Shown piece after piece: positions 11,097 to 37,405 of a DNA stretch of 64,000 bases (position 1 is the first letter of the stretch; every line of letters starts with the position of its first letter). The notes under the pieces are model-generated. The model searched no databases and was not told the origin of the DNA. It saw only the letters and a program-made list of their open reading frames with translations. Made by a program: the position numbers and the translations under genes. This DNA is from a virus, in the IMG/VR virus record IMGVR_UViG_3300042890_004141, positions 62,001 through 126,000 of that record. The stretch is one strand, 5' to 3'.

Positions 11097-13673
11097 TTAA
11101 GTTAAATAACGTACTATTACTATACCTGAGCCACCATTTCCAGCTGTAGTAGCATTAGCACCACCACCACCTCCTCCACCTGTATTTGAAACACCTGAAG
11201 TATTAGGGGTTAAAACTCCATTAATTAATCCAACACTATTACCTCCTCCTCCAAGTCCACCAAGACCTGAATTAGGAATAGTTCCTGAGAAGTTATGACT
11301 ACCTCCACCTCCACCTCCACCTGAGTAATAGGTAGAAAATCCAGTAATTGAATATGCTAAACCATCTCCACCGGCTGTTCCATCTAGAACACCTGAGGTA
11401 TCTGTAGAGTTTTCACCAGCTTCACCAGCACCACCACCTCCACCTGCAGATCTTGAACTATTAAGATCATCTCCTCCTTTATTACCTTGACCAGTAATAC
11501 CTGCAGCACCTGCTACTCCTGAGTCACCACCAGCTCCACCACCAGATCCTCCTATACTAGGTACATTTGGATTTTGATCAGCACCTCCTCTACCACCACC
11601 AATAGCAGTTAATCCGCCAAATACAGAATTTGACCCGTTAGTAGCATTGTTTTGATCAATAGTACCTCCACTACCACCGGCACCAATAGTTACAGTAATA
11701 CCACTACCTGCGGAAACACCATAAGAAGATACATAAAGTAATCCTCCGGCACCTCCGCCTCCTCCTCCTCCACCATTAACATTAGATTCAGCTCCTCCAC
11801 CTCCACCACCTCCAGCAACAACAAGTACTTCTACTTGACCTGTAAATGAAGGAGTAAAGGTTGCTGAACCTGTAAATGTATGAATAGTAAATGGTCCTGA
11901 ATATGAAATTGTACCACCTGAACCTGAATTGAAATTAGTCCAAGCTTGAACTTGGGCTTGACTTATTGAAGTATCAGGAATAGAAGCTAATGTATTTACA
12001 GCAAAATTATTACCAGGGACAGCATAAGTTTGCATATTTGTAAAATAAAGAGCATCAAAATATGTTCCTGTATATAGTAAAGATCCATTTACATACCAAT
12101 ATGAATTGGTATTGGTAAAATACCAAGCAGATCTATTTTTACCTTGTTTAGGAGTAAAACTCCCAGCATAAAAATATCCACCACTATTGTTTCCATCCCA
12201 ATATATTTGTCCTGATCCTCCTAAATTAGCAAAATAAAAATAATCTGATCCTGCAGACGGGTTATTATATAAAAATGTGTCGTAACGATTTCCACTTTCA
12301 AAATTATAAAAATCAAAATCATATAATATAACTCCAGGTTTAGAAGCAAATGCTTTTGTAGGACCAGGTGAATTGAAAACAACATCATTAGCAGCTCTAG
12401 TTACTGTTGCTGAAGTTGTTGGGATGTATGATGTTGCAAAATTTCCTTCTTCGCTTTGGGCTCCCCAAATATAAACATAATCCCCAACTGCGTAACCACC
12501 GGCAAAATAAGGATTAATAGATCGGTTAGCATCCATTTTAACTCCTATGCGATACCATCCATCTTTATAAGGTTCAATTGTACCTGTTCCACTTATTATA
12601 GTTCCGTTATATAAATTAAATTCTGTACCAAAAGATGTATTTCCTCTATATAAACTTAATCTACCAACATTTCCTGCTTTAGCGAATATAGTTGTATATC
12701 CGTCACTTACAGGAGCTGATGTTCCTATTTCTCCACTAGTAGCTGTTAATACTAGTTTAGATGCGTTCATAGTACCGTCAGGAGAGATAGCAGCACTTCC
12801 TGTTACAGTAACACTATATTTACCCCAAACAGCATTAGTAAAATCTTGACTATAAGTGTTTACATTTGTTCTTTGTGGTTCTTGTAATAATTTACCTTTA
12901 CCATTTTTATAATCAATTCGAGGATAACCTAAACGGTCTGTTGTTGGTTGGTATGGTTTTACACCACCTGTATTAAACATAGCACCCCACACAAATACAC
13001 TTGTACCTGTGCCAACGTAACCGGCAGATGTAAATGTTGATTGGTTTAATAACATACATAAAAAGTATAAGTTACCTCCAATCAATGAAGTTGCATATGT
13101 AAAAGTTCCAGTTACATAATACCAACCACCACCTACATTTGTTATTGTAGAAGTTAGAGTATCACCCCCTGTGTTTACAAAATTTTGAGTAATTGTACCA
13201 TTTACTAAATCAACAACTACTTGACTTCTGTAGACACTATCATCTGTAAGACCAAAACTAAAATATTGGTGATTATTGTATTTTACATAAAGAGAAAAAG
13301 ACATTGTTTGTGGGCTTCCATACCCTGTAAATGCTCCTTGATATACTCTATGGGCGGCATTATTACTATTATTAGCTATAGTATCTGCAGTTGTTGTTCC
13401 GTTAGGTGCTATAGTACTGTTTGCTGTTACAGATGTATCATTTAATATCCACGGACTAGATCCAATTGCCTCACTTTGATTTATTAAATTAGCCGGTACT
13501 GTTTCAATATAACCTTGTTGGTTAACTCGAGTACCACCTCCACTATTTCCACCAACAGCACCATCAACAGTACCATCATTAGGTAAAACAGAATATACCT
13601 TATCTTCTTGATAAGAAATTATACTACCCGCAGGATTAAAAATAAAAGAGGAATTATTGAGTATACTCGCCAT
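11097..13673 (-). CDS. Large adhesin: carbohydrate-binding-like modules plus glycine-rich C-terminus
   Basis: 858 residues. After a short N-terminus, two homologous beta-sandwich modules (about 62-245 and 262-425) each carry a 'NLINQSEAIGSSPW' / 'NVNTYSQDFTNAVW' start, a 'SPDGTMNASKLV' segment and a 'VFVWGAMF' / 'VYIWGAQSEEG' strand, as in the carbohydrate-binding-like repeats of phage fibres. A LamG-like segment follows (about 426-580). The C-terminal 270 residues are a glycine-rich domain (GYTIHTF-like strand, VEVLVVAGGGG, TVTIGAGGSGG, YYSGGGGGGG, GGSGIVIVRY), a type found at adhesin tips. The same domain is nested, in permuted order, in the 6963-8447 protein. Confidence 0.72.
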   Translation of the reverse strand: MASILNNSSFIFNPAGSIISYQEDKVYSVLPNDGTVDGAVGGNSGGGTRVNQQGYIETVPANLINQSEAIGSSPWILNDTSVTANSTIAPNGTTTADTIANNSNNAAHRVYQGAFTGYGSPQTMSFSLYVKYNNHQYFSFGLTDDSVYRSQVVVDLVNGTITQNFVNTGGDTLTSTITNVGGGWYYVTGTFTYATSLIGGNLYFLCMLLNQSTFTSAGYVGTGTSVFVWGAMFNTGGVKPYQPTTDRLGYPRIDYKNGKGKLLQEPQRTNVNTYSQDFTNAVWGKYSVTVTGSAAISPDGTMNASKLVLTATSGEIGTSAPVSDGYTTIFAKAGNVGRLSLYRGNTSFGTEFNLYNGTIISGTGTIEPYKDGWYRIGVKMDANRSINPYFAGGYAVGDYVYIWGAQSEEGNFATSYIPTTSATVTRAANDVVFNSPGPTKAFASKPGVILYDFDFYNFESGNRYDTFLYNNPSAGSDYFYFANLGGSGQIYWDGNNSGGYFYAGSFTPKQGKNRSAWYFTNTNSYWYVNGSLLYTGTYFDALYFTNMQTYAVPGNNFAVNTLASIPDTSISQAQVQAWTNFNSGSGGTISYSGPFTIHTFTGSATFTPSFTGQVEVLVVAGGGGGGGAESNVNGGGGGGGGAGGLLYVSSYGVSAGSGITVTIGAGGSGGTIDQNNATNGSNSVFGGLTAIGGGRGGADQNPNVPSIGGSGGGAGGDSGVAGAAGITGQGNKGGDDLNSSRSAGGGGGAGEAGENSTDTSGVLDGTAGGDGLAYSITGFSTYYSGGGGGGGSHNFSGTIPNSGLGGLGGGGNSVGLINGVLTPNTSGVSNTGGGGGGGANATTAGNGGSGIVIVRYLT

Positions 13674-13707: not shown

Positions 13708-14823
13708 TTATAAAGCAGTAATGAAGTAAGTTTCATATCCTCCATGACACCAACCGTAACCAAGTGGGAATTTCTCACTCATTAAATCATGAATAGAATT
13801 TTCCGGAATGTTACTACGTTCATCAAACTTTAGTTTAATGTGGATGCCTGGATTAGTTTGTTTTAGTTTATCTATAATGTTAGTTAGACTACTGAATGTT
13901 TGTTCGTTAAGGCAAACTATAACTTCGTCAAATTTCATATCTGAAGTACTATCAAAGTACAAATCATGATCAAAGAATAATTCCTTTAGTAGCTGACGTT
14001 CATATACCTTAATATCTTCTTTTACATAAAGTATACTCTGTCTTGAAGATGCTGTATTAAAATCACCCATAGCAAAATCTCTAGATTGATACTTGATAGG
14101 TAGGTAGTATAATGAGGTTGTTAGTTTGTCTGGATTGTTTAAGTAAGGGAACTTGCTTTCAATAAATAATCTTTCTGCTTCAATCTCAGCATAAGTTTCA
14201 CCTGATCTTCCTGGTTCTCTTGAAAATGTGTCTATTGAGTAGTTATACTCATATAAGGTTCTAGGAATATACAACCATTTTCCTTTAGTTTCAACATATC
14301 TAACTATGTTAGTATCGTTTTGATACCACTTTAATTGACCCTCGTCAAAACTAGGTATAATATTTCTCCAAGCCCGTCCCATTGGGGTATAGTTAAAAGT
14401 AGATATTTCTTCATAATCATAGTGGCCTCCTCCTTGAATTTCTACAAATTCACCTTTTTCATTTATATTTTTTGAATAACAGCTTATACCCGCTACATCA
14501 GGATGTTTTAAAAATAAGTGATTGTAAACCTCTAAAATGCGAGGATAAGCATAATCATCACTATCAAACTGAATTACTATTTCTCCGGTTGTTCCAGATT
14601 GTGGATTATAAAAGCATTCTTTTTTTCTAGACTGCTGATAGTACTTTACTCTAGAATCTTTTTTACAAATTTCCTTTAGTAATTCTTCAGCATTGTTATA
14701 GTCTGAAAAGTCATCAGTAACAATCCATTCCCAATCTTGATGGGTTTGGTCTAGAATTTGTTTGTATAGTTTTTCAACTAAATGGCTTCTTCTATAGAAT
14801 GATGTGCTTATACTAAATTTCAT
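13708..14823 (-). CDS. Family 2 (GT-A fold) glycosyltransferase
   Basis: 371 residues from the ATG at 14823; a longer reading to 14871 only adds out-of-frame sequence of the neighbour. The start overlaps the upstream stop as ATGA, a usual coupling signal. The N-terminal 110 residues are a nucleotide-sugar-binding GT-A domain: 'MKFSISTSFYRRSHLVEKLY', 'QTHQDWEWIVTDDFSD' and the metal-binding DxD-type motif 'IQFDSDDYAYPR'. The C-terminal half is unassigned. It probably transfers an activated sugar. It is the last gene of the glycosylation cassette and precedes the 858-residue adhesin. Confidence 0.85.
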   Translation of the reverse strand: MKFSISTSFYRRSHLVEKLYKQILDQTHQDWEWIVTDDFSDYNNAEELLKEICKKDSRVKYYQQSRKKECFYNPQSGTTGEIVIQFDSDDYAYPRILEVYNHLFLKHPDVAGISCYSKNINEKGEFVEIQGGGHYDYEEISTFNYTPMGRAWRNIIPSFDEGQLKWYQNDTNIVRYVETKGKWLYIPRTLYEYNYSIDTFSREPGRSGETYAEIEAERLFIESKFPYLNNPDKLTTSLYYLPIKYQSRDFAMGDFNTASSRQSILYVKEDIKVYERQLLKELFFDHDLYFDSTSDMKFDEVIVCLNEQTFSSLTNIIDKLKQTNPGIHIKLKFDERSNIPENSIHDLMSEKFPLGYGWCHGGYETYFITAL

Positions 14824-15434
14824 GGTTTCCAGATTCCTATCCCACCGAAGTGTTCTTTTTGTCCAAAACAAGTTGTTTTACCTGATGATTTTATAGTAAC
14901 TATGTTAGTTTTAGAACCATAAGATAGGTCCTGCCAAAATTTATATACCTGTCCACCAGCACCATCTCTAAAGATATGGTCAGGATCAATATCATGAAAC
15001 ACAATATACCCTCTAGGTGACAATAATTCTTGATATAATTCAAAATCACGTCTTACACCTTCATATGAATGATCTCCATCAATAAAAATTAGATCATATT
15101 CAGGGCAGAACTCTTTAACTTTATCTCTTGTTTCTTCAGTTTGTGAATCAGCTATAAATAACTTAAAGTCTTCTCCATACATCATATAGTGAGACCAAAT
15201 TGTTCTACCTTTATCCTCATAATCAACAGCTGCTTTTTTACCTGTTGATAATTGAGACATAATATGAAATGAACTTCCTTTAAATCCAATTTCTAGGATA
15301 TTGTTAGCTTGAAATCCTTTAAGCCAGTAACCAAATGTAGTTATCTCCTCATAAACCTGCTGGAATAAAGTAGGTTCGATAAGGAAATCCTTAACATGAT
15401 AGTCAATTAATTCCTGTATACTTATGTCTTTCAT
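14820..15434 (-). CDS. Class I SAM-dependent methyltransferase (CmcI/Methyltransf_24 type)
   Basis: 204 residues. The SAM-binding motif is 'NNILEIGFKGSSFHIM' (about residues 44-59). 'PEYDLIFIDGDHSYEGVRRD' (about 115-134) is the hallmark acidic loop of this family, followed by 'LLSPRGYIVFHDID'. Members methylate sugars or small molecules, often in polysaccharide biosynthesis. It sits between the FkbM-type methyltransferase (stop and start share base 15434) and a glycosyltransferase, so O-methylation of a glycan is the likely job. Confidence 0.82.
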   Translation of the reverse strand: MKDISIQELIDYHVKDFLIEPTLFQQVYEEITTFGYWLKGFQANNILEIGFKGSSFHIMSQLSTGKKAAVDYEDKGRTIWSHYMMYGEDFKLFIADSQTEETRDKVKEFCPEYDLIFIDGDHSYEGVRRDFELYQELLSPRGYIVFHDIDPDHIFRDGAGGQVYKFWQDLSYGSKTNIVTIKSSGKTTCFGQKEHFGGIGIWKP

Positions 15435-16384
15435 TAGCTAAAAAAGAATACTGTTCCGTTTTCACTTTCAATATTACATCCATCTTCAAATTGGCATTTA
15501 AATCCTAATGAATTAAAACGTTCAACTATAGAATTTAAACGTCCTTGTGAATTGTGGTATTCTAAAAGAATTTTATCTGTTATTTCGAATATAGCATTTG
15601 ATGTACTATCAATAACATTCCATTCTTCACCTTCAATATCTAATTTTAAAAGATTAATTTTATTCCAACCTAAAGTATTTACTACATTCTGCAGGGTTGT
15701 TGTTTGTACTATTTTAGTATTAGGATTATCGAAAGTAGAAAATTCACTGTGCTGAATATCTAAAGTTGAGATTAAAGGATTATCTTCCTTCCAGTATAAA
15801 GCGGTTTGTTCTTCTCGGTCAGATAGTGCTTCACCGATAATAGTTATATTAATATTATCTAAAAAATTACTAATTAAAGCCTTGATGCTTCTATCATCAC
15901 ATTCTATAGCAGCTACAAGCTTGGCTCCTTTATTTAAAATGTATTGAGTAAATAAACCGACACTGGCCCCAGCGTCAATTACCTTCTCACAATTACTCAA
16001 ATCAAAGTCTTTATATTTGTCATCAACAAAAAACTCTCGGTAATTAACAAATGATGGATGGTAGTAATCGTTTATATTCTGTTTATGCTTGTATAGATTA
16101 GTGTATCTAAACCTCAAAATGATTCTGTCTAAGACTACACCTTCATCAATTAATTCTAAGGTAAAACCTCCAAAATCCTCTCTACTAAAATCAAATCCGT
16201 GTTTAGGGGTTGGTTGGAAGAATACATAAAGACCGGGTTGTACGTCCCATATCTTCATTTTGTATATAGTAGCATCTAAATCAATGTCTTTAGCTACTAT
16301 GTAACCATTCTTAACAGGGTGATAAACACGAAGATCAATTCGCTGTTCATCAAAATTGTAATTTATTAATTCAAAACTTTTCAT
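15434..16384 (-). CDS. FkbM-family methyltransferase with extra N-terminal domain
   Basis: 316 residues. Residues 1-110 form a beta-rich extra domain of unknown role. Residues 111-316 are the FkbM-type methyltransferase: motif I 'KVIDAGASVGLFTQYI' (about 134-149), 'AAIECDDRSIKALISNF', and 'INLLKLDIEGEEWNVID' with the Asp-Ile-Glu-Gly signature. Enzymes of this family O-methylate sugars. Placed in a glycosyltransferase cluster, it may cap or modify the fibre glycan. Upstream of the ATG is TTTATAAATA. Confidence 0.85.
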   Translation of the reverse strand: MKSFELINYNFDEQRIDLRVYHPVKNGYIVAKDIDLDATIYKMKIWDVQPGLYVFFQPTPKHGFDFSREDFGGFTLELIDEGVVLDRIILRFRYTNLYKHKQNINDYYHPSFVNYREFFVDDKYKDFDLSNCEKVIDAGASVGLFTQYILNKGAKLVAAIECDDRSIKALISNFLDNINITIIGEALSDREEQTALYWKEDNPLISTLDIQHSEFSTFDNPNTKIVQTTTLQNVVNTLGWNKINLLKLDIEGEEWNVIDSTSNAIFEITDKILLEYHNSQGRLNSIVERFNSLGFKCQFEDGCNIESENGTVFFFS

Positions 16385-16409
16385 TATTTATAAAACTTTT
16401 TATTTTCTT

Positions 16410-17156
16410 TTACCCTAGTAACGGGACTATCCCGGCGTAGAGTGGTTCTCCAGTTATGCTAAATGGAGTTGTGTCTCCTCCAAGTACAACTGCTCCTTTA
16501 ACTAAGTTACCGGCACTCAAACCAAGTGTATTCTGTATTGTATAACTGTTTTCTGTGTAAGCTAAAATATTTGCTACAATCCTAGCTTTGTCTCCAGGTG
16601 TAGCTAAGTTAAAGCTAAATGGTGGTTGTGTCCAAGAAATATTATTTATCAAACTTACCCAAGTTCCTTCTGATGCTAGTGGGTTAGATGAATTAGGTAA
16701 TCCTCTTTGTGATTTCCATCCATTCTGAAATAAATCATCTTCGTCGGTGAAAGCGTACTGTACTATGTGAGATCCAGCGGCGAATGTAGAATCATTCAAC
16801 GAAGGTGTTACTATGTAGTAAGCATTACCTGCAGGTTCATTAAGTGAAGTAAAGGTTACTCCTGGTGCTGCTGTAGCAATAGAGGCAGAGTCTATAGTAT
16901 AAGCCGATAATTGAACGAAGTATAATTTACCTCTAGTTGTTCCTACAGGATAGGGAGTATACATTTGAAAGTCTTTTAATGCATTATTTCCTCTACTTCC
17001 AGTAGGCCATGTAAATTTATTATTTGGAGTAGAGGGAGGTGTGATGCCTAAGTAAGCATAGTTGTAGTTACTAGAAGCCATTTGGCCATTCCAAAAAGTA
17101 TCTAATGATCCTGTGTTATTAGCACCTACGCCGGTTGCCATCCAAATTCCTGCCAT
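16410..17156 (-). CDS. Hypothetical, probably virion structural protein
   Basis: 248 residues of beta-type, Asn/Ser/Thr/Gly-rich composition (MAGIWMATGVGANNTGSLDT; 'TWPTGSRGNNALKDFQMYTP'; 'FAAGSHIVQYAFTDEDDLFQ'). It has no enzyme motif, signal peptide or membrane helix. It is embedded among glycan-modifying genes: the heptosyltransferase homologue ends 3 bases upstream and the FkbM gene starts 26 bases downstream. It could be a fibre substrate of the cassette or an adhesin. I do not recognise the family. Confidence 0.5.
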   Translation of the reverse strand: MAGIWMATGVGANNTGSLDTFWNGQMASSNYNYAYLGITPPSTPNNKFTWPTGSRGNNALKDFQMYTPYPVGTTRGKLYFVQLSAYTIDSASIATAAPGVTFTSLNEPAGNAYYIVTPSLNDSTFAAGSHIVQYAFTDEDDLFQNGWKSQRGLPNSSNPLASEGTWVSLINNISWTQPPFSFNLATPGDKARIVANILAYTENSYTIQNTLGLSAGNLVKGAVVLGGDTTPFSITGEPLYAGIVPLLG

Positions 17157-17159
17157 ATA

Positions 17160-18353
17160 TTAATAAATATCCAAAAGTTTATTAACTGACATAATTACTT
17201 GATCTGGAGTAATAGTTTTAGTACATTCAAATTGGCGAGGGGTATCTTTATGGTCTGGACACCATTCCCAGTCGCCTGGATCTAACCATTTGCGGTTAAA
17301 ACATCCTTTACATGTTTTAGGATCTTCAGGATAAACACGTTCACATTCCTGGAATTCAGTATATGGATGGCTAAATCCTGAAATCATAATTGTAGGTGTG
17401 TTTAAAGACCAGGATAACCAACTTAATCCACTACCTACACCAATAAACATTTTAGCATCCCTAATATCAACCATTCTGTCTTGTAATGGTAAATCTCCAG
17501 TTTTATTAATTACACCTGTTAAAGTACCTCCTAGTTTAGAGTCATGCCATTCATCACCTAAAGGCTCTTGAGTAAGCATTACTACTTTATAACCTTTATC
17601 ATTTAAATAATCAATAACAGTTTGCCATCCTCCTTTATAATTCCAATACTTAGCATGGGCTGAAGCATGAGGAGCAATAACAACATAATCACCTTTAATA
17701 TCTGTTTTTGTTTTAGGTGAGTTTATAATAGGTTTAACTTCAGAGTATTTTAACCCTAAAATTTCACTTGCTGTTTGTTGTAAAGGATATTTTTTAAAGT
17801 CAATTGGTATCTTATCAAATATAACTTTTTTATCATCATAAAACCAACCAAGATTATACATTGCATAAAGGTTATCTACTTGAGAACCAGGTTTTACAAA
17901 CTCAATATGTGGGTAATTTCCTTCAAACCATTCATTGTGGAATGTAGAACAAATTACATCACACATAAATGTTTTTCTAAATTCTTCAATGTAAGGGAAC
18001 CATGCTAAAGTATCACCCATAGCCCCAGAATCAATGTGTATATAAACGCGTTTATCTTTTACACACCAATCATGATCAAATACTAAATTGTTGTTACTAT
18101 AAACTTCTATACGCCAATTAACACAATATTTAATGTTGGTACGAGTCCACATATTGTTATTAATTGTACTTTCATGTAATACACGATTTGTTTTTTTATT
18201 AATAAATTTAACTTTATATTCTTGTTCTGATGGTCCTAAAACTTCTAAGAAAGCACCATTAACAAAATTAACATTAAAAGTGTTTTGTGGTTTTTTGTTT
18301 TTAATATTTAATATTTTAGTATTACTATATTCTTTAACCAATATGTCTTTCAT
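17160..18353 (-). CDS. Autotransporter-heptosyltransferase (Aah/TibC) family glycosyltransferase
   Basis: 397 residues. Residues 1-100 match the beta-rich N-terminal domain of the bacterial autotransporter heptosyltransferase family (FNVNFVNGAFLEVLGPSE; NNMWTRTNIKYCVNWRIEVY). The catalytic GT-B part opens 'VYIHIDSGAMGDTLAWFPYI', with the family's Gly-Asp-Thr (D114), then 'VICSTFHNEWF', 'VVIAPHASAHAKYWN' and 'IGVGSGLSWLSWSLNTPTI'. Four Cys (348, 351, 365, 377) sit where the family has its metal-binding finger. Known members glycosylate Ser on repetitive strand-loop-strand autotransporter domains; here the likely target is a phage fibre. It overlaps the next upstream gene by 20 bases. Confidence 0.85.
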   Translation of the reverse strand: MKDILVKEYSNTKILNIKNKKPQNTFNVNFVNGAFLEVLGPSEQEYKVKFINKKTNRVLHESTINNNMWTRTNIKYCVNWRIEVYSNNNLVFDHDWCVKDKRVYIHIDSGAMGDTLAWFPYIEEFRKTFMCDVICSTFHNEWFEGNYPHIEFVKPGSQVDNLYAMYNLGWFYDDKKVIFDKIPIDFKKYPLQQTASEILGLKYSEVKPIINSPKTKTDIKGDYVVIAPHASAHAKYWNYKGGWQTVIDYLNDKGYKVVMLTQEPLGDEWHDSKLGGTLTGVINKTGDLPLQDRMVDIRDAKMFIGVGSGLSWLSWSLNTPTIMISGFSHPYTEFQECERVYPEDPKTCKGCFNRKWLDPGDWEWCPDHKDTPRQFECTKTITPDQVIMSVNKLLDIY

Positions 18354-19281
18354 ATAAATTTATTAATTCAGCAGAACGATTTAACCAGGACAATTTTTCA
18401 GCGGTTTGTAAAGATAATTTCCTGTAGTCATTATATTCATTTATGATTGTATCTAACCCACGTAACATTTCTTGTAAATCACGAGGTGATCTCCATAACC
18501 CATGGAATGTAGTTTCTTCTTCAATCCATCCAAGTATAGGTAAACCACAAGCTGCTGCCTCTAATATAGTTAAATTAGGATGACCTGCTTCTAATTCTGA
18601 TGGGTGTAAAAAGATTGTATGTGAGTTATAAAGTTGTCTTAATTGTTCATTAGACGGCTCAGTTAAAATACTTAACTTAGGATAACCAAATATCCAAGGA
18701 TTGTCATTAAACCAATTTTCATTATTTTTTGGACCAGCTATTGTGATAGGTAAATTAGAAGCCATAGCTACTTTAATACCTAATTCAAATCCTTTTCTAT
18801 CATAAGAACCATATCCACCTAAACCATTATTTGCTAACATTAATAAACTATGATAAACAGGTGTTGTATCATTTGGTTTAAATGTATCTGTATTTACTCC
18901 ATGAGAAAAATAATGCACATTAGGCAATTCAAAATAATCAACTAAATAACGAGCAGGTACTAAAGAAAAAATAGATTTTTCCATAGCCTTTCGATTTTGT
19001 TTATAAACATCTGAGTCTTTACCGTAATGGTAAGCATGGTGGTCATGATGCTGGAAGATATAAGGTATGCCTTTGTCTGCTAATTCTAGGGCTAAGTTAG
19101 CAACATGAACCATTACTAAATCATAATCTCCTTTTTTAATTTCATTAGCCCATTTTATATCTACTTCATGACCTAATTCTTTTAAATTGCATGTAAATTC
19201 CCATACAATTTTTTCTATTGCTCCCCATGTGGGTGGAGGAATTGGTATTCCACATCCTGGATTTACTTGGCAGATTTTCAT
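18334..19281 (-). CDS. GT-B fold glycosyltransferase (family 4 type)
   Basis: 315 residues. The N-terminal half opens 'MKICQVNPGCGIPIPPPTWGAIEKIVW' in family-4 style, with a Gly-rich acceptor loop and a helix. The C-terminal half has 'LPITIAGPKNN', 'LRQLYNSHTIFLHPSELEAG' and 'NLTILEAAACGLPILGW', matching the donor-binding E-x7-E region (here ELEAGHPNLTILEAAACG). It is slightly shorter than usual family-4 enzymes. It probably adds a sugar from a nucleotide-sugar donor. It lies in a tightly packed run with the 19284 and 17160 genes. Confidence 0.85.
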   Translation of the reverse strand: MKICQVNPGCGIPIPPPTWGAIEKIVWEFTCNLKELGHEVDIKWANEIKKGDYDLVMVHVANLALELADKGIPYIFQHHDHHAYHYGKDSDVYKQNRKAMEKSIFSLVPARYLVDYFELPNVHYFSHGVNTDTFKPNDTTPVYHSLLMLANNGLGGYGSYDRKGFELGIKVAMASNLPITIAGPKNNENWFNDNPWIFGYPKLSILTEPSNEQLRQLYNSHTIFLHPSELEAGHPNLTILEAAACGLPILGWIEEETTFHGLWRSPRDLQEMLRGLDTIINEYNDYRKLSLQTAEKLSWLNRSAELINLYERHIG

Positions 19282-19283
19282 TT

Positions 19284-19892
19284 TTAATTATGTACAAATA
19301 AACACTTATCTATAAAATATGGAATTAACTCATGTTTCATATTTTCTACTAATATTCCATCAGCTGCTGCTTCATGTTTATCTATTGAATATTTTTTTAT
19401 AACTTCACTTTTTGTAGTAAATTGACCAAAATCAATATAACTATGTTGGATTTTAGGAATAAAATGTCCATAATCTTTTTTATTATGACTATGAATATTA
19501 CTATATTTTCCTAAAATCATTTCCCAATATACAAAATTTACTTCAGGATTCCTAGTAATTGCTAGATTAATTTCTTCAAGCAAAATAGGCATAAAGTAAT
19601 TATCATCATTAGTATGGATAATCCAATCACCGGTTGCTAATTGGGTACCTACTTCTCTGCTATGATGACCCCAATGGCCGTGTCTTATTTCTGTATTTGT
19701 ATATTTAAATCTAGGATCTTTAAGATAATCTTCTAATTGATTTTTATGATTATTATTAAAACCATCATGCACTAAAATAACTTCCCAATTACTATAAGTT
19801 TGACAAACAATACTTTGAAGATTACATTTAAGCAAGTGTGTTTGTTCCCAACATGGAATAATAAAACTAAATTTTGTTTTTTCTATTTTCAT
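19284..19892 (-). CDS. Small family 2 (GT-A) glycosyltransferase
   Basis: 202 residues, little more than a catalytic GT-A domain: 'FSFIIPCWEQTHLLKCNLQS', 'QTYSNWEVILVHDGFNNN', then 'GTQLATGDWIIHTNDDNYFM' with the Asp-Asp metal/nucleotide motif. It lacks the membrane anchors of polysaccharide synthases, so it is a soluble transferase. It is separated by 2 bases from its neighbours on both sides, so it is co-translated with them. Confidence 0.82.
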   Translation of the reverse strand: MKIEKTKFSFIIPCWEQTHLLKCNLQSIVCQTYSNWEVILVHDGFNNNHKNQLEDYLKDPRFKYTNTEIRHGHWGHHSREVGTQLATGDWIIHTNDDNYFMPILLEEINLAITRNPEVNFVYWEMILGKYSNIHSHNKKDYGHFIPKIQHSYIDFGQFTTKSEVIKKYSIDKHEAAADGILVENMKHELIPYFIDKCLFVHN

Positions 19893-19894
19893 AG

Positions 19895-21886
19895 TTAATA
19901 TAAAGTTAAGACTCCGTTTTTAGGTAATTGATTTTCAATATAATATTCATCAACTATTATTTTTTTATTTTCTATTTGAGTTTGATCATGTATATCATAA
20001 GATGAATAAACTATAATGTATGTTTTTTTAGGATCAAACATAACTTGTCTAAACCAAGCTATTTTATGTAAAACATTTACTGTTTCTTCAAAAAGCATAT
20101 TCTCATCTTCGTAAACTGTAATGTTAATATTTCTACTATCAGTTGAATTAGCGATATTTAAAAACACGGCAAATTGGTCTGGATGTTCTTTAATAGGTAG
20201 TACTGAAAAATATTCTACTCGGGAGTAATCTTTATGGGTAAAATTATCTTTTACTAATTTAGTAAATTCAGATTCTTCTTCCCAATATATTTTATCAGCA
20301 TCTTGATTAAAAGTATGGTATGTTAAATTTTCTAATCCGTTAGATTCACTACCCCATTTTACCATTAATGAATCATATTCTTTAGATGTTTTAATAGGTA
20401 AAAAATGATCTAAATAAAATTGAGGTTTAGTAGCTAAAAAATAAGTAATAACTGTATTGCCTTCTAGTTCTTTTCTTAAACCAACATATGCTTGTTTATT
20501 ATTTAATATTAAAGATACATTGTCGATATAAGAAGCATTTTCTAAAATATAATCATAATTTAAAAAGAATATTTTTTTAATACCTAAACTATTAGCTAAT
20601 GAAGCTGCATTGTAATAATTAGTATACACAGATGGTCCATGATAAACATCATTGTTTTCTCCAGATAACATCAAATCTACTCTCCAACTACTATAATCAA
20701 ACCAAGTATAACTATAGAATGTATGTTTAGTTAAAAGATTATTATTATCATAGATACAATAATCAACTATTTCTTGCAGTTCTTTAGGAATTGGTAAGTG
20801 TGATGTTAATATAATTTTTCTACCTGTTTTCTTTAAAGACTCAATACATTCTTTAGTTGTTTCAACTATAGAGTTTAAAATTGGGTAGGTTGAAACTACT
20901 ATTGCTTCTTCTTCAGTTTTAGGTAAATTAGAATAATATAAAGTAGATTCAATTAAACTTAAATTATAACTAAAATCAGTAAAGTCTAAGTAATTTACAT
21001 TATAATCATCCCAATAATTAAGATATACAGGTAGGTTATATATTAAAACAGGTATTTGATATGAAACTGCTTCTCTAATTACTAGAGGCATTGTTTCTTT
21101 ATCATTGTTTGTGCCCCTGGATGTAAATAGGAATAGATCCATTGCTTGATAAAAAGCATCTACATCTGTTCTTTCATTCCACCAAGTTAAATTATTGGGT
21201 TTGTTTTTCATTAACGGTTCCCAATAATGTCTAAAGTTGTCGGCTTGATTACCTACACAATGGAACTCATATTGAGGTAACGCTTTAGCATATTCAAAAA
21301 ACTCAGCTTGGTTTTTACGGGGAGTAAATAATCCAATATGAAGAATATGTTTTTTATTAGGATCTAATCCTAATTTTTGTAGTGCCCCTGTTCTATCCGG
21401 TCTTTCAATATATTCAATAGGATATTCAACTAATACTTTAGGAATGTCTATATCTTTATATTGATTAATCTGCCATTGTGATACAAACATAAACTTATCC
21501 GGGAAAAATTTCTTCTGAGTTGTGTCATAAGATGAGTCATGAGATGTTTCTACAATTTTATACTTTCTGTCTTGAGTATAAATTTGCTCAGCTATCTTAC
21601 TATCCATAAAAAACTCAGGTATTTCCTCTAAATGAATAATATCGGGTTGGATATTATTAATAATATTGATTAATTGCTGTTTATTATCGTCTAATGTGTA
21701 GAACTTTTCAGGGGCAACTAACTGCGTTATCTTATTGCGAGTCACTACTAATATACCACCAGTACAATCAACCCATTCAACTAAATAAATATCATAACTA
21801 TTTTTTAATAGTTCAATTTTTTTAGCTAAATATTGAGGTAATCCTCCTGTCGATAAATGAGGCGCTACATATAGTAGTTTCTCCAT
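19895..21886 (-). CDS. Two-part glycosyltransferase: GT-B N-terminus plus second sugar-transfer-like domain
   Basis: 663 residues. Residues 1-330 are a family-4 GT-B enzyme: 'LLYVAPHLSTGGLPQYLAKK' at the N-terminus, 'PDIIHLEEIPEFF', 'HILHIGLFTPRKNQAEFFEY', and 'MDLFLFTSRGTNNDKETMPLVIREAVSYQIPVL' in the donor site. From about 345 a second domain starts with 'AIVVSTYPILNSIVETTKEC', 'GRKIILTSHLPIPKELQEIV', then 'LGIKKIFFLNYDYILENASY'; it resembles a divergent GT-A fold but I see no clear DxD. A last beta-rich module spans about 560-663. It is the first glycosyltransferase after the collagen-like fibre. Confidence 0.75.
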   Translation of the reverse strand: MEKLLYVAPHLSTGGLPQYLAKKIELLKNSYDIYLVEWVDCTGGILVVTRNKITQLVAPEKFYTLDDNKQQLINIINNIQPDIIHLEEIPEFFMDSKIAEQIYTQDRKYKIVETSHDSSYDTTQKKFFPDKFMFVSQWQINQYKDIDIPKVLVEYPIEYIERPDRTGALQKLGLDPNKKHILHIGLFTPRKNQAEFFEYAKALPQYEFHCVGNQADNFRHYWEPLMKNKPNNLTWWNERTDVDAFYQAMDLFLFTSRGTNNDKETMPLVIREAVSYQIPVLIYNLPVYLNYWDDYNVNYLDFTDFSYNLSLIESTLYYSNLPKTEEEAIVVSTYPILNSIVETTKECIESLKKTGRKIILTSHLPIPKELQEIVDYCIYDNNNLLTKHTFYSYTWFDYSSWRVDLMLSGENNDVYHGPSVYTNYYNAASLANSLGIKKIFFLNYDYILENASYIDNVSLILNNKQAYVGLRKELEGNTVITYFLATKPQFYLDHFLPIKTSKEYDSLMVKWGSESNGLENLTYHTFNQDADKIYWEEESEFTKLVKDNFTHKDYSRVEYFSVLPIKEHPDQFAVFLNIANSTDSRNINITVYEDENMLFEETVNVLHKIAWFRQVMFDPKKTYIIVYSSYDIHDQTQIENKKIIVDEYYIENQLPKNGVLTLY

Positions 21887-21904
21887 AACCTTTGTTAAAT
21901 AAAA

Positions 21905-22183
21905 TTAGAATGAAGCTACTTTGGTATTTTCAACTTCAGTAGGGATAAATTCACCACTTTCAATGTTGATAGTACCAGCACCATACTTGTCAGAAAGAGT
22001 TTTACCCATTTCAGATTCTTCTTCTTTTAAATCATTAAAGAATTTAACAAGTTCAGTTTCTCTAGCTTCAAGTTGCAATTTAGCAATTCTAAGATTACCA
22101 AATTCATTTACAAGAGCAGTGTTTTTTTGTTGGATTTCTTTAAGAGCGTCAATCTCTTTTTTAGTTAATTTTTTTGTAGCCAT
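21905..22183 (-). CDS. Small coiled-coil protein, paralogue of the 537-788 protein
   Basis: 92 residues, Lys/Glu-rich, one long coiled coil (about 8-65) ending in 'LSDKYGAGTINIESGEFIP'. The tail motif and helix length match the protein at 537-788. It lies between the collagen-like fibre (66 bases upstream) and the glycosyltransferase run, which suggests a shared structural or assembly role for both copies. A TATATTTATT element lies 28 bases before the ATG. Function unknown. Confidence 0.7.
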   Translation of the reverse strand: MATKKLTKKEIDALKEIQQKNTALVNEFGNLRIAKLQLEARETELVKFFNDLKEEESEMGKTLSDKYGAGTINIESGEFIPTEVENTKVASF

Positions 22184-22249
22184 AAATTTATTTTAATAAC
22201 AGTTTATATCAATAAATATATGAAAAATAATTTAAATATCCAAACTATC

Positions 22250-25200
22250 TTAGAAAACACCAGTAATTATTCCTCCTACAACATTTATGTTTTGAGTTCC
22301 TGGAGGGTTCATTGGGATGTTTATAACTCCAGTATATCCAGGAGCTGCTCCTATAGAATATCCAGTTGAAGCATTAATTTGACCAGAAACATCTAGAGGA
22401 TATCCGGGAGATGCTGTACCAATTCCTAATCTACTATTTGTAACATCAGCATATAGGAAAGATACACTTTGTATTTGAGTTGTACTTGTAGTTCTAACTA
22501 GATAATCAGGTTGATTAGTAAACGTACCACCACTAATACCAGAAGTACCATTAAATGATAAACCTGAAGTACCAGCTGAACCGCTTGTACCTGAAGTACC
22601 GCTTACTGCAGATAAACCAGCAGCCCCTGCTATACCTGAAGTACCAGAGCTACCGGATGTGCCTGATGTGCCTGAAGTTTGAGACGCTCCTGAAGCTCCT
22701 GCCGCTCCAGAAGTACCATTTGATCCATTCGTACCTGAAGTTCCTGAAGTGTTAGAAGATCCTGAGGCTCCTGCTGTTCCGTTTGAACCTGCTGAACCTG
22801 AAGTGCCAGAAGTATTTGATAAACCACTTGCTCCTGCTAGTCCTGAAGTACCACTTGAGCCTGAAGAACCACTTGAGCCTGAAGTACCAGAAGTGTTTGA
22901 GGATCCAGAAGGACCGGCTGTACCATTTGATCCTGTTGAACCACTAGAACCAGCAGTACCTGATGTGTTTGAAGATCCTGAAGGGCCAGCGGTTCCATTA
23001 GAACCTGTTGAACCTGAAGAACCACTAGTTCCTGATGTACTTGATACACCTGAACCACCATCTACTCCTGATGTACCTGTACTTCCAGACGAACCACTTG
23101 AGCCAGATGTTCCTGAAGTATTAGATGAACCTGAAGGGCCTGCGGTTCCATTTGAACCTGTAGATCCGCTTGAACCTGAAGTGCCAGAAGTGTTAGATGA
23201 ACCTGATGGACCTGCTGTACCATTTGATCCTGTTGATCCAGAAGAACCAGATGTTCCTGATGAACTTGAAGAACCAGAAGCGCCTGCTGTACCGTTAGAT
23301 CCTGATGAACCTGAAGTACCAGAAGTGGCACTTACTGCTGAAAGACCAGCAGCACCTGCTATACCAGAAGTACCTGAAGAACCGGATGTACCACTTGTTC
23401 CTGAGGTTGTTGAACTTCCAGAGGCACCTGCTGTTCCATTAGAACCAGTTGAGCCAGAAGTTCCAGAAGTATTAGAAGAGCCTGAAGCTCCAGCCGTTCC
23501 ATTAGAACCAGTAGAACCACTAGTACCTGATGTGTTAGATAAACCTGAGTTCCCTGCTGTACCACTTGAGCCTGTAGAACCACTAGTTCCAGAAGTGCCG
23601 GAAGTATTGGAGGATCCAGATGGACCTGCTGTACCATTAGAACCGGTTGATCCTGAAGTACCGCTTGTACCTGAAGTAGATGATGCTCCTGAATTACCTG
23701 CTGCACCTGATGATCCATTTGAACCAGCTGAACCTGAAGTTCCAGATGTATTAGATATACCACTAGCTCCTGCTAATCCGGATGTTCCGCTTGAACCAGA
23801 TGATCCACTAGAACCTGAAGTGCCAGAAGTGTTAGATGAACCTGATGGACCTGCTGTACCATTTGATCCTGTTGATCCAGAAGAACCAGATGTTCCTGAT
23901 GTATTAGAAGATCCAGAAGGACCTGCAGTTCCATTAGAACCTGTTGATCCACTTGAACCTGAAGTACCGGAAGTAAAGGATGTACCTGAAGGGCCTGCTG
24001 TTCCATTTGAACCTGTTGACCCTGATGATCCACTAGTACCAGAAGTACTTGAAACGCCTGAACCTCCATCAACACCAGAAGTACCTGTTGAACCAGAAGA
24101 TCCAGAAGAACCAGATGAGCCGCTTGTTTGTGATGCTCCACTAGCTCCTGCACTACCATTTGATCCTGTAGAACCAGAAGTACCAGAAGTGCCTGAAGAA
24201 TTTGATTGCCCTGAATTACCTGCTGTACCTGAACTCCCTGTTGAACCAGATGATCCGCTTGAACCTGAAGTAAAAGATTCTCCAGATGCTCCTGCGTTTC
24301 CTGAAGTACCATTTGATCCTGAAGAACCGCTTGATCCTGAAGTACCAGAAGTGCCTGAAGAAGAAGATGATCCAGAAGCACCAGCAGTACCATTAGAACC
24401 TGAACTTCCTGAGGTACCAGAAGTAGCACTTACTGCTGAAAGACCAGCAGCGCCTGCTATACCTGAAGTACCAGATGAACCGCTTGTTCCTGAAGTACCT
24501 GAAGTATTGCTACTACCTGATACTCCTGCACTACCATTTGATCCTGTTGATCCTGAAGTTCCTGAGGTACCTGAAGTGTTGCCTGTGCCTGAAGCACCTG
24601 CTGAACCATTTGATCCAGCTGAACCAGATGTACCTGAAGTTCCACTAGTACCTGAAGAACCACTATTTTGTGATAAACCTGAAGTACCTGTTGATCCAGA
24701 AGAACCAGAAGTACCTGAGGTTGAACTTTGTCCTGAATTACCTGCCACTCCAGAAGAACCATTTGATCCACTTGAACCTGATGTTCCAGAACTAGCTGAT
24801 TGTCCTGATGATCCATCAACACCTGATGAACCACTTGAACCTGATGAACCACTTGATCCAGAAGTACTAGACACTCCTGAAGAACCATTTGATCCTGATG
24901 ATCCAGATGAACCACTAGATCCACTTGTACCAGAAGTAGAAGAACTTCCTGAGGCACCGGCTGAACCATTTGATCCAGCTGAACCACTAGTACCTGATGT
25001 ATTTGATATACCACTAGCTCCTGCTAATCCTGATGTACCAGAAGAGCCAGAGCTACCTGACGATCCAGAAGATCCGCTTGAACCAGATGTCCCAGATGTG
25101 TTACTTTGTCCTGAAGAACCATTTGACCCTGATGAACCACTTGTTCCTGATGTACCACTAGAACTACTTTCTCCTGAAGAACCATTTGACCCTGATGAAC

Positions 25201-27205
25201 CAGAAGTACCACTAGTACCAGAAGTTCCAGCACTTCCACTTGCCTGAGAAAGACCTGAGGTACCTGTTGATCCAGAACTACCTGAAGTTCCAGAAGTTGA
25301 AGATTGTCCACTATTACCCGCTGCTCCAGAAGAACCATTTGATCCACTAGATCCAGATGTACCTGAAGTACCGCTTGTACCAGAAGAATTAGATTGTCCA
25401 CTACTACCTGCTAATCCAGAAGAACCGTTTGATCCAGAGGAACCACTAGTGCCTGAAGTTGAAGATTGACCTGATGATCCATCTAACCCGCTTGAACCAG
25501 ATGAACCGCTTGAGCCAGAAGATCCGCTTGTTCCACTAGTACCTGATGATTGAGATAGACCAGAAGTACCAGTTGATCCACTTGAACCTGAAGTACCAGA
25601 AGTACTTGATTGACCACTATTGCCTGCTACTCCAGATGAACCATTTGATCCAGAACTACCTGAAGTACCTGAAGTTGAGGATTGACCTGATGAACCATCT
25701 GCTCCTGTTGAACCTGAAGATCCAGAAGAGCCACTGGTTCCTGAAGTTGAAGATTGTCCTGATGAGCCATTAATACCTGAAGAACCATTTGATCCACTAG
25801 ATCCAGATGAGCCGCTTGAACCTGATGTTCCACTTGTTGAAGATATTCCTGAGCCTCCATCAACACCAGAAGTACCTGAGCTGCCTGAGCTGCCTGAACT
25901 ACCGCTTGTACCTGATGTACCGCTTGTTTGAGATAAACCATCAGTTCCGGCTGAACCATTTGAACCTGAAGAACCACTAGTTCCACTAGTACCAGAAGAT
26001 TGTGATAGACCAGAAGTACCTGTACTACCGCTTGATCCAGAAGTACCTGATGTGCTTGATTGGCCGCTATTTCCAGCTACACCTGAAGATCCATTTGAAC
26101 CTGAACTGCCTGAGGTACCAGAGGTAGATGATTGTCCTGATGAGCCATCTAATCCACTTGAACCTGAAGATCCAGATGAACCACTGGTTCCACTTGAACC
26201 TGATATTCCTGATGATCCATCTACTCCGCTTGAACCAGATGAGCCATTTGAGCCTGAAGAACCACTAGTTCCACTAGTGCCTGATGATTGAGATAAACCT
26301 GAAGTGCCTGTTGATCCACTTGATCCAGAAGTACCAGAAGTAGAAGATTGACCTGAGTTACCTGCTAAACCTGAGGAACCGCTTGAACCTGAACTACCTG
26401 ATGAACCTGACGTTCCAGAAGAACCATCTTGTCCACTAGAACCAGATGAACCACTTGAGCCAGAAGATCCTGAACTACCTGATGATCCACTTGTACCACT
26501 ACTGCCATCATTACCACTTGAACCAGCAGAACCACTAGATCCAGAAGATCCACTTGTACCACTGATTCCTGAAGATTGTGATAGACCAGAAGTACCAGTT
26601 GATCCACTTGAACCTGAAGTTCCTGAAGTAGATGATTGTCCACTATTACCTCCTGCTCCTGAAGAACCATTTGATCCTGATGAACCAGAAGTTCCACTAG
26701 TACCTGAACTTCCTGAAGAACCACTTGAGCCGGATGTACCACTAGTTCCTCCACTTGTTCCTGAAGAACCTTCTACACCACTAGTTCCTGATGAACCTGT
26801 TGAGCCTGATGATCCACTTGTGCCTGCTGTTCCACTTGTACCTGAAGAGCCAGATATTCCTGAGGTACCAGATGAACCTCCTGAAGTACCTGAACTTCCG
26901 CTTACACCAGAAGTACCATTTGACCCTGATAAACCACTTGAACCTGCTAATCCAGAAGAACCATTTGATCCAGATGTACCTGAAGTACCTGAGGTGCCTG
27001 ATGTGCCTGCTGTTCCACTTCCGCCTCCGCCTCCTTGAACTAAAGATACAACACCATCATCGTTTATAGTTAAAACGTAACCTTCCCAACCTTCAGTTAC
27101 AATAGGTAAATTAAATTTATTAAAAGCTAATGACCTATCAAAAAAACCTCTACCTTGGTTTGGGTTGTCTAAACGATTATTACCTCTGTATCTGTTTTCG
27201 GCCAT
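22250..27205 (-). CDS. Giant collagen-like fibre of Gly-Ser/Thr triplets
   Basis: 1651 residues. Residues 1-62 form a globular head (MAENRYRGNNRLDNPNQGRG; GWEGYVLTINDDGVVSLVQG) that probably attaches it to the virion. Residues 63-1559 are almost unbroken Gly-X-Y triplets in which X and Y are mainly Ser or Thr (GTS, GSS), with scattered Ala, Asn, Asp, Gln and Leu and almost no Pro. Collagen-like helices without Pro can be stabilised by glycosylated Thr/Ser. The C-terminal 92 residues carry one 'LGIGTASPGYPLDVSG' unit, the repeat of the 30626-37381 fibre, and a short tip. Glycosyltransferase genes follow directly downstream, so it is the prime candidate for glycosylation. Confidence 0.85.
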   Translation of the reverse strand: MAENRYRGNNRLDNPNQGRGFFDRSLAFNKFNLPIVTEGWEGYVLTINDDGVVSLVQGGGGGSGTAGTSGTSGTSGTSGSNGSSGLAGSSGLSGSNGTSGVSGSSGTSGGSSGTSGISGSSGTSGTAGTSGSSGSTGSSGTSGVEGSSGTSGGTSGTSGSSGSSGSSGTSGTSGSSGSNGSSGAGGNSGQSSTSGTSGSSGSTGTSGLSQSSGISGTSGSSGSSGSAGSSGNDGSSGTSGSSGSSGSSGSSGSSGSSGQDGSSGTSGSSGSSGSSGSSGLAGNSGQSSTSGTSGSSGSTGTSGLSQSSGTSGTSGSSGSNGSSGSSGVDGSSGISGSSGTSGSSGSSGSSGLDGSSGQSSTSGTSGSSGSNGSSGVAGNSGQSSTSGTSGSSGSTGTSGLSQSSGTSGTSGSSGSNGSAGTDGLSQTSGTSGTSGSSGSSGSSGTSGVDGGSGISSTSGTSGSSGSSGSSGSNGSSGINGSSGQSSTSGTSGSSGSSGSTGADGSSGQSSTSGTSGSSGSNGSSGVAGNSGQSSTSGTSGSSGSTGTSGLSQSSGTSGTSGSSGSSGSSGSSGLDGSSGQSSTSGTSGSSGSNGSSGLAGSSGQSNSSGTSGTSGTSGSSGSNGSSGAAGNSGQSSTSGTSGSSGSTGTSGLSQASGSAGTSGTSGTSGSSGSNGSSGESSSSGTSGTSGSSGSNGSSGQSNTSGTSGSSGSSGSSGSSGSSGTSGLAGASGISNTSGTSGSAGSNGSAGASGSSSTSGTSGSSGSSGSSGSNGSSGVSSTSGSSGSSGSSGSSGVDGSSGQSASSGTSGSSGSNGSSGVAGNSGQSSTSGTSGSSGSTGTSGLSQNSGSSGTSGTSGTSGSAGSNGSAGASGTGNTSGTSGTSGSTGSNGSAGVSGSSNTSGTSGTSGSSGTSGIAGAAGLSAVSATSGTSGSSGSNGTAGASGSSSSSGTSGTSGSSGSSGSNGTSGNAGASGESFTSGSSGSSGSTGSSGTAGNSGQSNSSGTSGTSGSTGSNGSAGASGASQTSGSSGSSGSSGSTGTSGVDGGSGVSSTSGTSGSSGSTGSNGTAGPSGTSFTSGTSGSSGSTGSNGTAGPSGSSNTSGTSGSSGSTGSNGTAGPSGSSNTSGTSGSSGSSGSSGTSGLAGASGISNTSGTSGSAGSNGSSGAAGNSGASSTSGTSGTSGSTGSNGTAGPSGSSNTSGTSGTSGSTGSSGTAGNSGLSNTSGTSGSTGSNGTAGASGSSNTSGTSGSTGSNGTAGASGSSTTSGTSGTSGSSGTSGIAGAAGLSAVSATSGTSGSSGSNGTAGASGSSSSSGTSGSSGSTGSNGTAGPSGSSNTSGTSGSSGSTGSNGTAGPSGSSNTSGTSGSSGSSGSTGTSGVDGGSGVSSTSGTSGSSGSTGSNGTAGPSGSSNTSGTAGSSGSTGSNGTAGPSGSSNTSGTSGSSGSSGSSGTSGLAGASGLSNTSGTSGSAGSNGTAGASGSSNTSGTSGTNGSNGTSGAAGASGASQTSGTSGTSGSSGTSGIAGAAGLSAVSGTSGTSGSAGTSGLSFNGTSGISGGTFTNQPDYLVRTTSTTQIQSVSFLYADVTNSRLGIGTASPGYPLDVSGQINASTGYSIGAAPGYTGVINIPMNPPGTQNINVVGGIITGVF
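22529..27019 (-). repeat. Gly-Ser/Thr triplet repeat tract
   Basis: DNA encoding the collagen-like shaft, 9-bp periodicity at the triplet level with larger recurring blocks (for example a 'GNSGQSSTSGTSGSSGSTG' block seen several times). Codons vary between copies, but long exact copies remain (91 bases at 23172-23262 and 23811-23901), a sign of recent internal duplication. Confidence 0.85.
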
Positions 27206-27253: not shown

Positions 27254-28126
27254 TTAGTTAGTACTTGGTAGGTTTGAAGGAGGAATAGTAGTTTCTGTAG
27301 AGATAAATATTTGAGTTTTATTTGAAAATTTCTGTAATGCAGTTATATCTTTTTGTAATAGTTCTGGGATTATATATCCATTAATTTTAATACTAAATGT
27401 ACTTCTTACTATACGTTCATCATCTTGAGATAATTCGGTTTGGAAGCCAAACGAATCAATCATTGCTTTAAATTGATAACGTTGAGGATCACCCCAGTAA
27501 GCATCTGAGGCATATTCCATTGATTCAACTATTTTATTTAGTTGTTCCACATAATAAGTAAATACAGCACATTCATATGTTACTGTTAAATAATCAGGCA
27601 TTACAACAGCATAATATTCTTTTTGAGGAACACGATTGTTTAATACCTTAAAATTATCATAAGCATTTTGTTGACTGTAACGTTTAGTAAACACACCAAA
27701 GTTATTTGGATTGTTAGCATCTAACTTATTAGCAATAGCTCTATTTTTAGTTATGTCTGTTCTTTTAAACATAATCAAAGGAGCCATAATTTTACCTTTT
27801 TGATCCCTGTAGTAACCATCTTTTTGATATGATTTCCACTTTTCAGGTGAACCATAGATTACAGGAACAGGCAAACGAGAACCATTTTGTGTTACTGATG
27901 GTTGGATTACATTTTCAAAGTAATAGAATATAGCCTCATCAATATCTTGAATTCCAACACTAAATGGTTTAGTTGTATCACCTTTAAAAGTTGTATTTAA
28001 AGCTCTATTGTTAGTAGGGGTTGGGTTAAAATCATTAGGATTACCTGACTGTGAATAGGTAGGCACATGCTGCTCTTTTGAAAGCTGCTTTTGAGTTTTT
28101 GGTATGGGTTTTCTAACTTGAGCCAT
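27254..28126 (-). CDS. Tail sheath terminator/stabiliser, T4 gp15-like
   Basis: 290 residues. Its layout follows T4 gp15: 'LPVPVIYGSPEKWKSYQKDG' (gp15 has IRVPITYASKEHF), 'IMAPLIMFKRTDI' (gp15 LPRINLHL), 'YLTVTYECAVFTYYVEQLNK' (gp15 MIYELSIFTRYEDDMFQ) and 'RSTFSIKINGYIIPELLQ' (gp15 WSLTFEVNGWMYPP). gp15 caps the sheath and tube and joins the tail to the head. The order with the two upstream genes mirrors T4 13-14-15. The first 60 residues are a flexible extension rich in Gln, Asn and Pro. Confidence 0.78.
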   Translation of the reverse strand: MAQVRKPIPKTQKQLSKEQHVPTYSQSGNPNDFNPTPTNNRALNTTFKGDTTKPFSVGIQDIDEAIFYYFENVIQPSVTQNGSRLPVPVIYGSPEKWKSYQKDGYYRDQKGKIMAPLIMFKRTDITKNRAIANKLDANNPNNFGVFTKRYSQQNAYDNFKVLNNRVPQKEYYAVVMPDYLTVTYECAVFTYYVEQLNKIVESMEYASDAYWGDPQRYQFKAMIDSFGFQTELSQDDERIVRSTFSIKINGYIIPELLQKDITALQKFSNKTQIFISTETTIPPSNLPSTN

Positions 28127-37381: not shown

Positions 37382-37395
37382 TCTTTATTATTTGT

Positions 37396-37405
37396 TATAA
37401 ATATT
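37396..37405 (-). promoter_or_regulatory. AATATTTATA box upstream of 37381 start
   Basis: Exact copy 14 bases before the ATG; it overlaps the stop codon of the upstream fibre gene. Confidence 0.45.

Follow-up and report, generated by a model that had tools for sequence, protein, structure and literature searches.

We analysed a run of glycosyltransferase (GT) genes and the collagen-like fibre gene that precedes it, both on the minus strand of a 64,000-nucleotide window covering positions 62001-126000 of a 135,792-bp IMG/VR virus record. In the order of transcription, the fibre gene (22250..27205), whose 1651-aa product of Gly-Ser/Thr triplets is the proposed substrate, is followed by a gene for a small protein of 92 aa (21905..22183) and then by GT1, which encodes a 663-aa GT-B glycosyltransferase (19895..21886; PF00534, 4e-12); GT2b, of the GT2 family (19284..19892; PF00535, 5e-14); GT4, a GT-B glycosyltransferase with a match to PF13692 (Pfam GT1/GT4) just above the cut-off, 27.6 bits against 27 (18334..19281); BAHT, a homologue of the TibC/Aah-type Ser-O-heptosyltransferases (17160..18353; Pfam GT9, TIGR04414); a gene for a 248-aa protein with no Pfam, PHROG or NCBIfam match (16410..17156); an FkbM-family methyltransferase gene (15434..16384; PF05050, 5.5e-10; TIGR01444, 70.3 bits against a cut-off of 37.7); a Methyltransf_24 methyltransferase gene (14820..15434; PF13578, 5.5e-14); GT2a, again of the GT2 family (13708..14871; PF00535, 8.8e-13); and a tail protein gene. 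The five GT and two methyltransferase genes listed in an earlier note on this DNA all lie at the coordinates given there, on the minus strand, and Pfam supports each of them. The intergenic gaps from GT1 to GT2a range from -52 to +25 bp, and the coupling of the run is therefore real; the 52-bp overlap at 13708 probably arises from a false TTG start, as an ATG lies 16 codons inside, and the start codon of GT2a is treated as uncertain. The same note had described one tightly coupled run directly after the fibre, which is right as to the coupling, but the 92-aa gene lies between the fibre and the GT genes, and the 248-aa gene lies inside the run. Relatives of the 92-aa protein persist in phages without the cassette, where they adjoin the tail sheath gene, and we place this gene outside the cassette proper. 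An open reading frame (ORF) similar to the fibre gene precedes the cassette in relatives.

The composition of the fibre (474 Gly, 618 Ser, 207 Thr and 17 Pro in 1651 residues) bears out the earlier description of a Gly-Ser/Thr fibre with almost no Pro. Its 430 clean Gly-X-Y triplets carry Ser (47%) or Thr (29%) at X and Ser (72%) at Y. The protein thus has the long, unbroken Gly-X-Y triplets of a collagen-like sequence; a triple helix, if formed, would contain almost no Pro.

We evaluated the family membership of the protein encoded at 17160-18353 by sequence, fold and active-site residues. It scores 319.8 bits against TIGR04414, the model of the TibC/Aah autotransporter Ser-O-heptosyltransferases (BAHT), for which the NCBI equivalog cut-off is 200, and it matches TibC (4RAP) with E = 9e-57; lipopolysaccharide (LPS) heptosyltransferase models score far below TIGR04414 on the same protein. 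Its AlphaFold model (pLDDT 83) combines an N-terminal beta-barrel with a GT-B catalytic fold, and Foldseek aligned the model with TibC 4RAP at TM-scores of 0.77/0.80, compared with only 0.40-0.52 (query-normalised) for LPS-type GT9 enzymes. In TibC, Asp110 is the base, Thr226, Lys230, Arg286 and Trp305 bind the sugar, and Cys339/342/358/370 are iron ligands (PMC4358343). By alignment, these correspond to D114, to S231, K235, R293 and W312, and to C348/351/365/377. D114, K235 and W312 are kept in all 56 non-redundant homologues, R293 in 54 of the 56, and residue 231 is Ser or Thr in every one; the putative iron-finger cysteines C348, C351, C365 and C377 are likewise present in 56/56, in a part of the model where confidence is low. 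TibC-type enzymes have a beta-hairpin thumb with two hydrophobic residues at its tip and form a dodecamer; the alignment with TibC gives no clear equivalent of the Phe-Val tip. In place of an autotransporter partner, the phage enzyme has the collagen-like fibre. By sequence and predicted fold, therefore, the protein is a BAHT-family enzyme, and the system around it is not an autotransporter-modifying one. The link to autotransporter heptosyltransferases drawn in the earlier note is correct at the level of the family, on the grounds of TIGR04414, the TibC match, the residues and the fold.

Relatives of this enzyme are abundant in IMG/VR, where one scan found 319 and an alignment-based scan at least 573. 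To separate core from accessory genes, we used 42 non-redundant loci of this phage lineage with enough flanking sequence. GT1 and GT4 accompany BAHT in all 42 and therefore form the core with it, in the order GT1, GT4, BAHT. The other genes are accessory: GT2a, GT2b, the Methyltransf_24 gene and the 248-aa gene each occur in 1-2 of the 42 loci (GT2b in one), and FkbM occurs in six. The extra GTs and methyltransferases are thus nearly private to this phage. We reject the idea of one system made up of the five GTs and the two methyltransferases, since conservation is confined to the three core genes and does not extend over the whole run. A homologue of the 248-aa protein (16410-17156) was seen only in a near-identical contig (L002). 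In other phages, the cassette domains are fused as GT4-BAHT, GT1-BAHT, GT1-BAHT-FkbM and FkbM-GT-GT1-BAHT, which argues for a single pathway. Among the structural matches of the GT1 AlphaFold model are the GT4-family enzymes PimB', BshA and PglA. A TibC-like beta-barrel suspected by eye at the C-terminus of GT1 was rejected, because the HHalign probability was 11% and Foldseek matched the GT-B domain only.

The contig also carries, outside the window, a second cluster of two GT2 genes, one Methyltransf_24 gene, one GT1 gene and unassigned ORFs (G000:C1:13567-21192; loci L085, L086). We considered it as a part of the cassette and dismissed it, because a gene from this cluster occurs both in relatives that have the cassette and in relatives that lack it. 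A GroEL-like gene lies on the same contig (G000:C1:24865-26478), as do candidate 7-deazaguanine (queuosine pathway) DNA-modification genes, judged by eye, at ~35639-38421 (L086).

We next consider how the fibre and the cassette are distributed within the lineage. On the minus strand of the window, the genes run from terminase, portal and the T4-type major capsid protein (MCP) to PhoH, head-tail genes, the fibres and the GT run; by MCP, the nearest cultured relatives are Flavobacterium phage Immuto (53% identity) and Microcystis phage Mel-JY01 (47%). A sample of 38 contigs was selected by MCP, independently of the fibre and BAHT, and the fibre was scored by a DNA pattern of four (Gly-[Ser/Thr]-[Ser/Thr]) triplets, for which the reversed-pattern control was near zero. 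The pattern was present in 13/13 contigs with BAHT and in 9/25 without it (Fisher p = 1e-4); in each of these nine, either the fibre is located at a contig end or is cut by it, or the sequence breaks off at GT1, just short of BAHT. Fibre and cassette occupy a conserved slot between the neck gene and the tail sheath, bounded upstream by the conserved gene TC290 (27254..28126, minus strand) and downstream by the sheath gene, which is named from the Immuto annotation. Among slot-complete contigs, which leave aside ten further contigs with neither BAHT nor the pattern, 13 have both fibre and BAHT, seven have neither and none is mixed (p = 1.3e-5, for contigs that are related by descent). Immuto is an eighth case with neither: the 40 kb that we examined lack both the triplets and any homologue of the cassette. 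In the near-isogenic pair G052/G054 (identity of 97% for MCP, 99% for Ad396, 90% for TC290, 93% for the sheath protein and 98% for T162), G052 has the fibre, GT1, GT4 and BAHT, and G054 lacks all four. On the MCP tree, the state switches five times by parsimony, at least three of them on supported branches. The core cassette and the fibre are gained and lost together. The survey of related phages suggested in the earlier note thus found the two traits not to be independent, rather than fibre without cassette, or the reverse, at similar rates.

The same distribution bears on two other roles for the GTs. They might modify the host surface (LPS or capsule) as serotype-converting or superinfection-excluding enzymes, with the fibre adjoining them in a common host-range module. 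Such GT2, GT1 and methyltransferase genes are indeed known in polysaccharide clusters, their best NCBIfam matches, all far below cut-off, are WcaA, TuaG and EpsE, and the cassette is exchanged together with adhesin genes. We nevertheless regard this role as unlikely, because the core initiator comes from the protein-O-heptosyltransferase family, far above the LPS heptosyltransferase models, and because slots with other adhesins contain no GT. In the seven BAHT-less contigs, the alternative slot content amounts to 48 ORFs, nine of them with the lectin-like Laminin_G_3 domain and others with beta-propeller, sialidase-like or lyase C-terminal domains, and none of the 48 gave a GT or methyltransferase match. 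Modification of the phage DNA, through glucosylated bases, has precedents in phage DNA-glycosylating enzymes, and the moraphage paper proposes such a role for its core GTs; with a BAHT homologous to a protein glycosyltransferase, and located and lost with the fibre gene, this role is extremely improbable here.

To assess the pairing from the side of the fibre, we selected 50 contigs of at least 25 kb by Gly-Ser/Thr triplets alone. BAHT was found in 25 of them, at a median distance of 7.2 kb from the fibre and on the opposite strand in 10/25. We did not take the other 25 as a refutation, since in 19 of them the contig end is no more than 3 kb away from the fibre, and three of the four uncut contigs without BAHT have only short triplet stretches of 63-126 residues. 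When a long fibre was left with 10 kb on both sides, BAHT was present in 13 of 14 contigs. Metagenome contigs very often stop within or just past the triplet repeats (loci L178-L191, L217, L230 and others), and, as a result, counts of the genes that accompany phage collagen genes come out too low. Beyond this lineage, one further lineage has MCP, GT1, GT4 and BAHT with a convergent collagen gene; in Microcystis phage Mel-JY01 (PP395634), a GT1-BAHT fusion is preceded, at a distance of 1.7 kb, by a Gly-Ser/Thr ORF; and in the 735-kb record LR756501, a Gly-Ser/Thr ORF adjoins GT1 and BAHT genes. In Mel-JY01, the collagen-like ORF on the plus strand (L082:2-3052) is overlapped by annotated minus-strand 'hypothetical protein' genes, and the record probably misannotates the fibre gene.

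The pairing also occurs on bacterial chromosomes. We scanned bacterial and archaeal genome contigs for a collagen gene within 12 kb of BAHT. The phage-type BAHT clade lies near Gly-Ser/Thr collagen in 8/10 loci, against 0/17 for the classical clade (p = 2e-5), some members of which adjoin proteins with AIDA repeats; some of the eight collagen-linked loci (L409, L410) are probably phage contigs in metagenome-assembled genomes (MAGs). Methylobacter luteus and M. sp. BlB1 (L411:8941-11143, L412:8950-11170) encode, in an otherwise ordinary chromosomal neighbourhood, a protein of GTS/GTA/GTN triplets with an apparent signal peptide, and its gene stops ~41 bp short of that for a phage-type BAHT. Judged by sequence, this collagen-BAHT pair represents a minimal two-gene version of the system, and the same enzyme adjoining a secreted collagen-like protein speaks further against a role on the host surface. 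Separately, ORFs of Ser-Ser-Gly repeats lie ~1 kb upstream of near-identical BAHTs in a Burkholderiales MAG (L414:8667-9014) and an Oxalobacteraceae MAG (L415:1284-1943).

Recombination at a variable slot could move the fibre and the cassette together with no functional tie between them. This neutral hitch-hiking would fit the single exchangeable slot that both share in this lineage and the small number of concordant switches, but the varied gene orders, the convergent placement, the domain fusions and the two-gene bacterial version make it very unlikely. It is also improbable, though somewhat less so, that the cassette glycosylates another virion protein to which the fibre is merely linked, such as the 248-aa protein, the tail protein (11097-13673) or the second collagen-like fibre of 963 aa (37404..40295, minus strand). 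Several virion genes do adjoin the cassette, and the second fibre has Gly-Ser/Thr triplets of the same kind, with a Y position even richer in Ser (82%). However, only the Gly-Ser/Thr fibre recurs as a non-GT partner across lineages, strands and bacterial chromosomes, and the gene for the 248-aa protein is confined to this phage. The second fibre may serve as an additional substrate, which is compatible with glycosylation of the first.

Taken together, a BAHT-family enzyme with a conserved active site is paired recurrently, and nearly obligately, with long Gly-Ser/Thr fibres, and we consider it likely that the locus encodes a modular cassette for glycosylation of the fibre, in which the first step is the O-glycosylation of Ser in the collagen-like triplets. 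From this we infer a substrate, a donor, an order of steps and a benefit. Known BAHTs add heptose to Ser, not Thr, of repetitive passenger proteins (PMC4358343), and Ser takes up 72-82% of the Y positions in the two fibres of this phage. In the infected cell, the BAHT homologue would transfer a sugar, most likely heptose from host ADP-heptose, to the triplet Ser of the newly synthesised fibre, which presents hundreds of regularly spaced Ser; GT4 and GT1 would extend the first sugar; the accessory GT2 and methyltransferase genes of this phage would vary or cap the glycan; and the decorated fibre would then enter the virion. The glycan could plausibly stabilise a collagen-like rod that has no Pro, given that sugars are thought to have this effect in BclA and other bacterial collagens (PMC8968730); shielding or adhesion would fit equally well. 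The methyl-capping, stiffening, masking and tuned adhesion put forward in the earlier note would thus be candidate roles only.

Several points weigh against this interpretation. The fibre glycan is a prediction from genes. The known substrates of BAHTs are beta-helical autotransporters rather than collagen-like triplets. The rfaE_dom_II model finds no ADP-heptose adenylyltransferase (HldE domain) in the phage, and the donor must therefore come from the host; the HldE adenylyltransferase domain is present in four of the five genomes where phage-type BAHTs were found. The independent switch pairs on the MCP tree are concordant in 3/3 cases, which are too few for p < 0.05. Among long-fibre contigs, the uncut L195 without BAHT is a true exception, and L240, without BAHT and with 7.3 kb left downstream, is a likely one. 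Conversely, the huge-phage record LR756504 has BAHT with no collagen within 20 kb, and L418 has BAHT with no collagen seen nearby.

A broader proposal, on which we are evenly divided, is that one BAHT branch moved from autotransporter substrates to collagen-like ones and now underlies widespread glycosylation of virion fibres in aquatic phages, most of which probably infect Bacteroidota, and also occurs on a few bacterial chromosomes, with O-glycosylated Ser replacing Pro/hydroxyproline in very long Pro-free fibres. Four core phage GT groups have been described, with only guesses as to their role (PMC12619734); fibre glycosylation, if true, would explain this widespread gene set left open by recent surveys (PMC12619734) and would supply a substrate and an initiating enzyme testable in E. 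coli. It would also add to phage biology an enzyme known from bacteria as a modifier of adhesins, and suggest a route to Pro-free collagen-like rods. Host-range prediction from sequence would then overlook glycans on which the outer fibres of many aquatic phages, and with them adsorption and possible shielding, depend. Natural experiments for such work already exist in the slot swap between near-isogenic contigs and in the Methylobacter pair of two genes.

Finally, we compared the cassette with known systems. The earlier note held that a virion-protein glycosylation system of this size would be new; glycosylation of virion proteins by phages is in itself not new, having been reported for the mycobacteriophage capsid and tail tube (Freeman et al. 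2023, as cited in PMC12619734). That system shares with ours a phage that glycosylates virion proteins, and differs in the proteins concerned, with no collagen-like fibre named in the citing text. On phage BAHTs or glycosylated phage collagen fibres, we found nothing on point in the open-access literature. Phage virion glycosylation and glycosylated collagens are known already, and the feature without precedent in that literature is the pairing of a phage BAHT and a collagen-like fibre. Mimivirus L230, a lysyl hydroxylase and collagen glucosyltransferase (PMC9614988), likewise serves a virus that modifies its own collagen-like virion protein, but through hydroxylysine-Glc chemistry, in a eukaryotic virus and with an unrelated enzyme. 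The glycosylated exosporium proteins BclA, and Clostridioides difficile BclA3 with the adjacent GT gene sgtA, share the collagen-like triplets and the adjoining GT gene; SgtA O-glycosylates the collagen triplets of the neighbouring gene product and accepts Thr and Ser (PMC7157674). SgtA, a GlcNAc transferase of the GT-A type, acts on Gly-Pro-Thr, whereas the initiator here is of the GT9/BAHT type and the triplets are without Pro. The Gram-negative BAHT pairs TibC-TibA and Aah-AIDA-I (PMC4358343) share the TIGR04414 sequence, the fold, the catalytic Asp, the sugar-binding residues and the iron-finger cysteines, as well as the pairing of the enzyme gene with a repetitive Ser-rich surface protein. 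Their partner is an autotransporter; here the enzyme is phage-borne and paired with a collagen-like fibre of the virion, it is invariably accompanied by, or fused to, two further GTs, and the phage-type BAHTs form a group separate from that of the classical bacterial enzymes.

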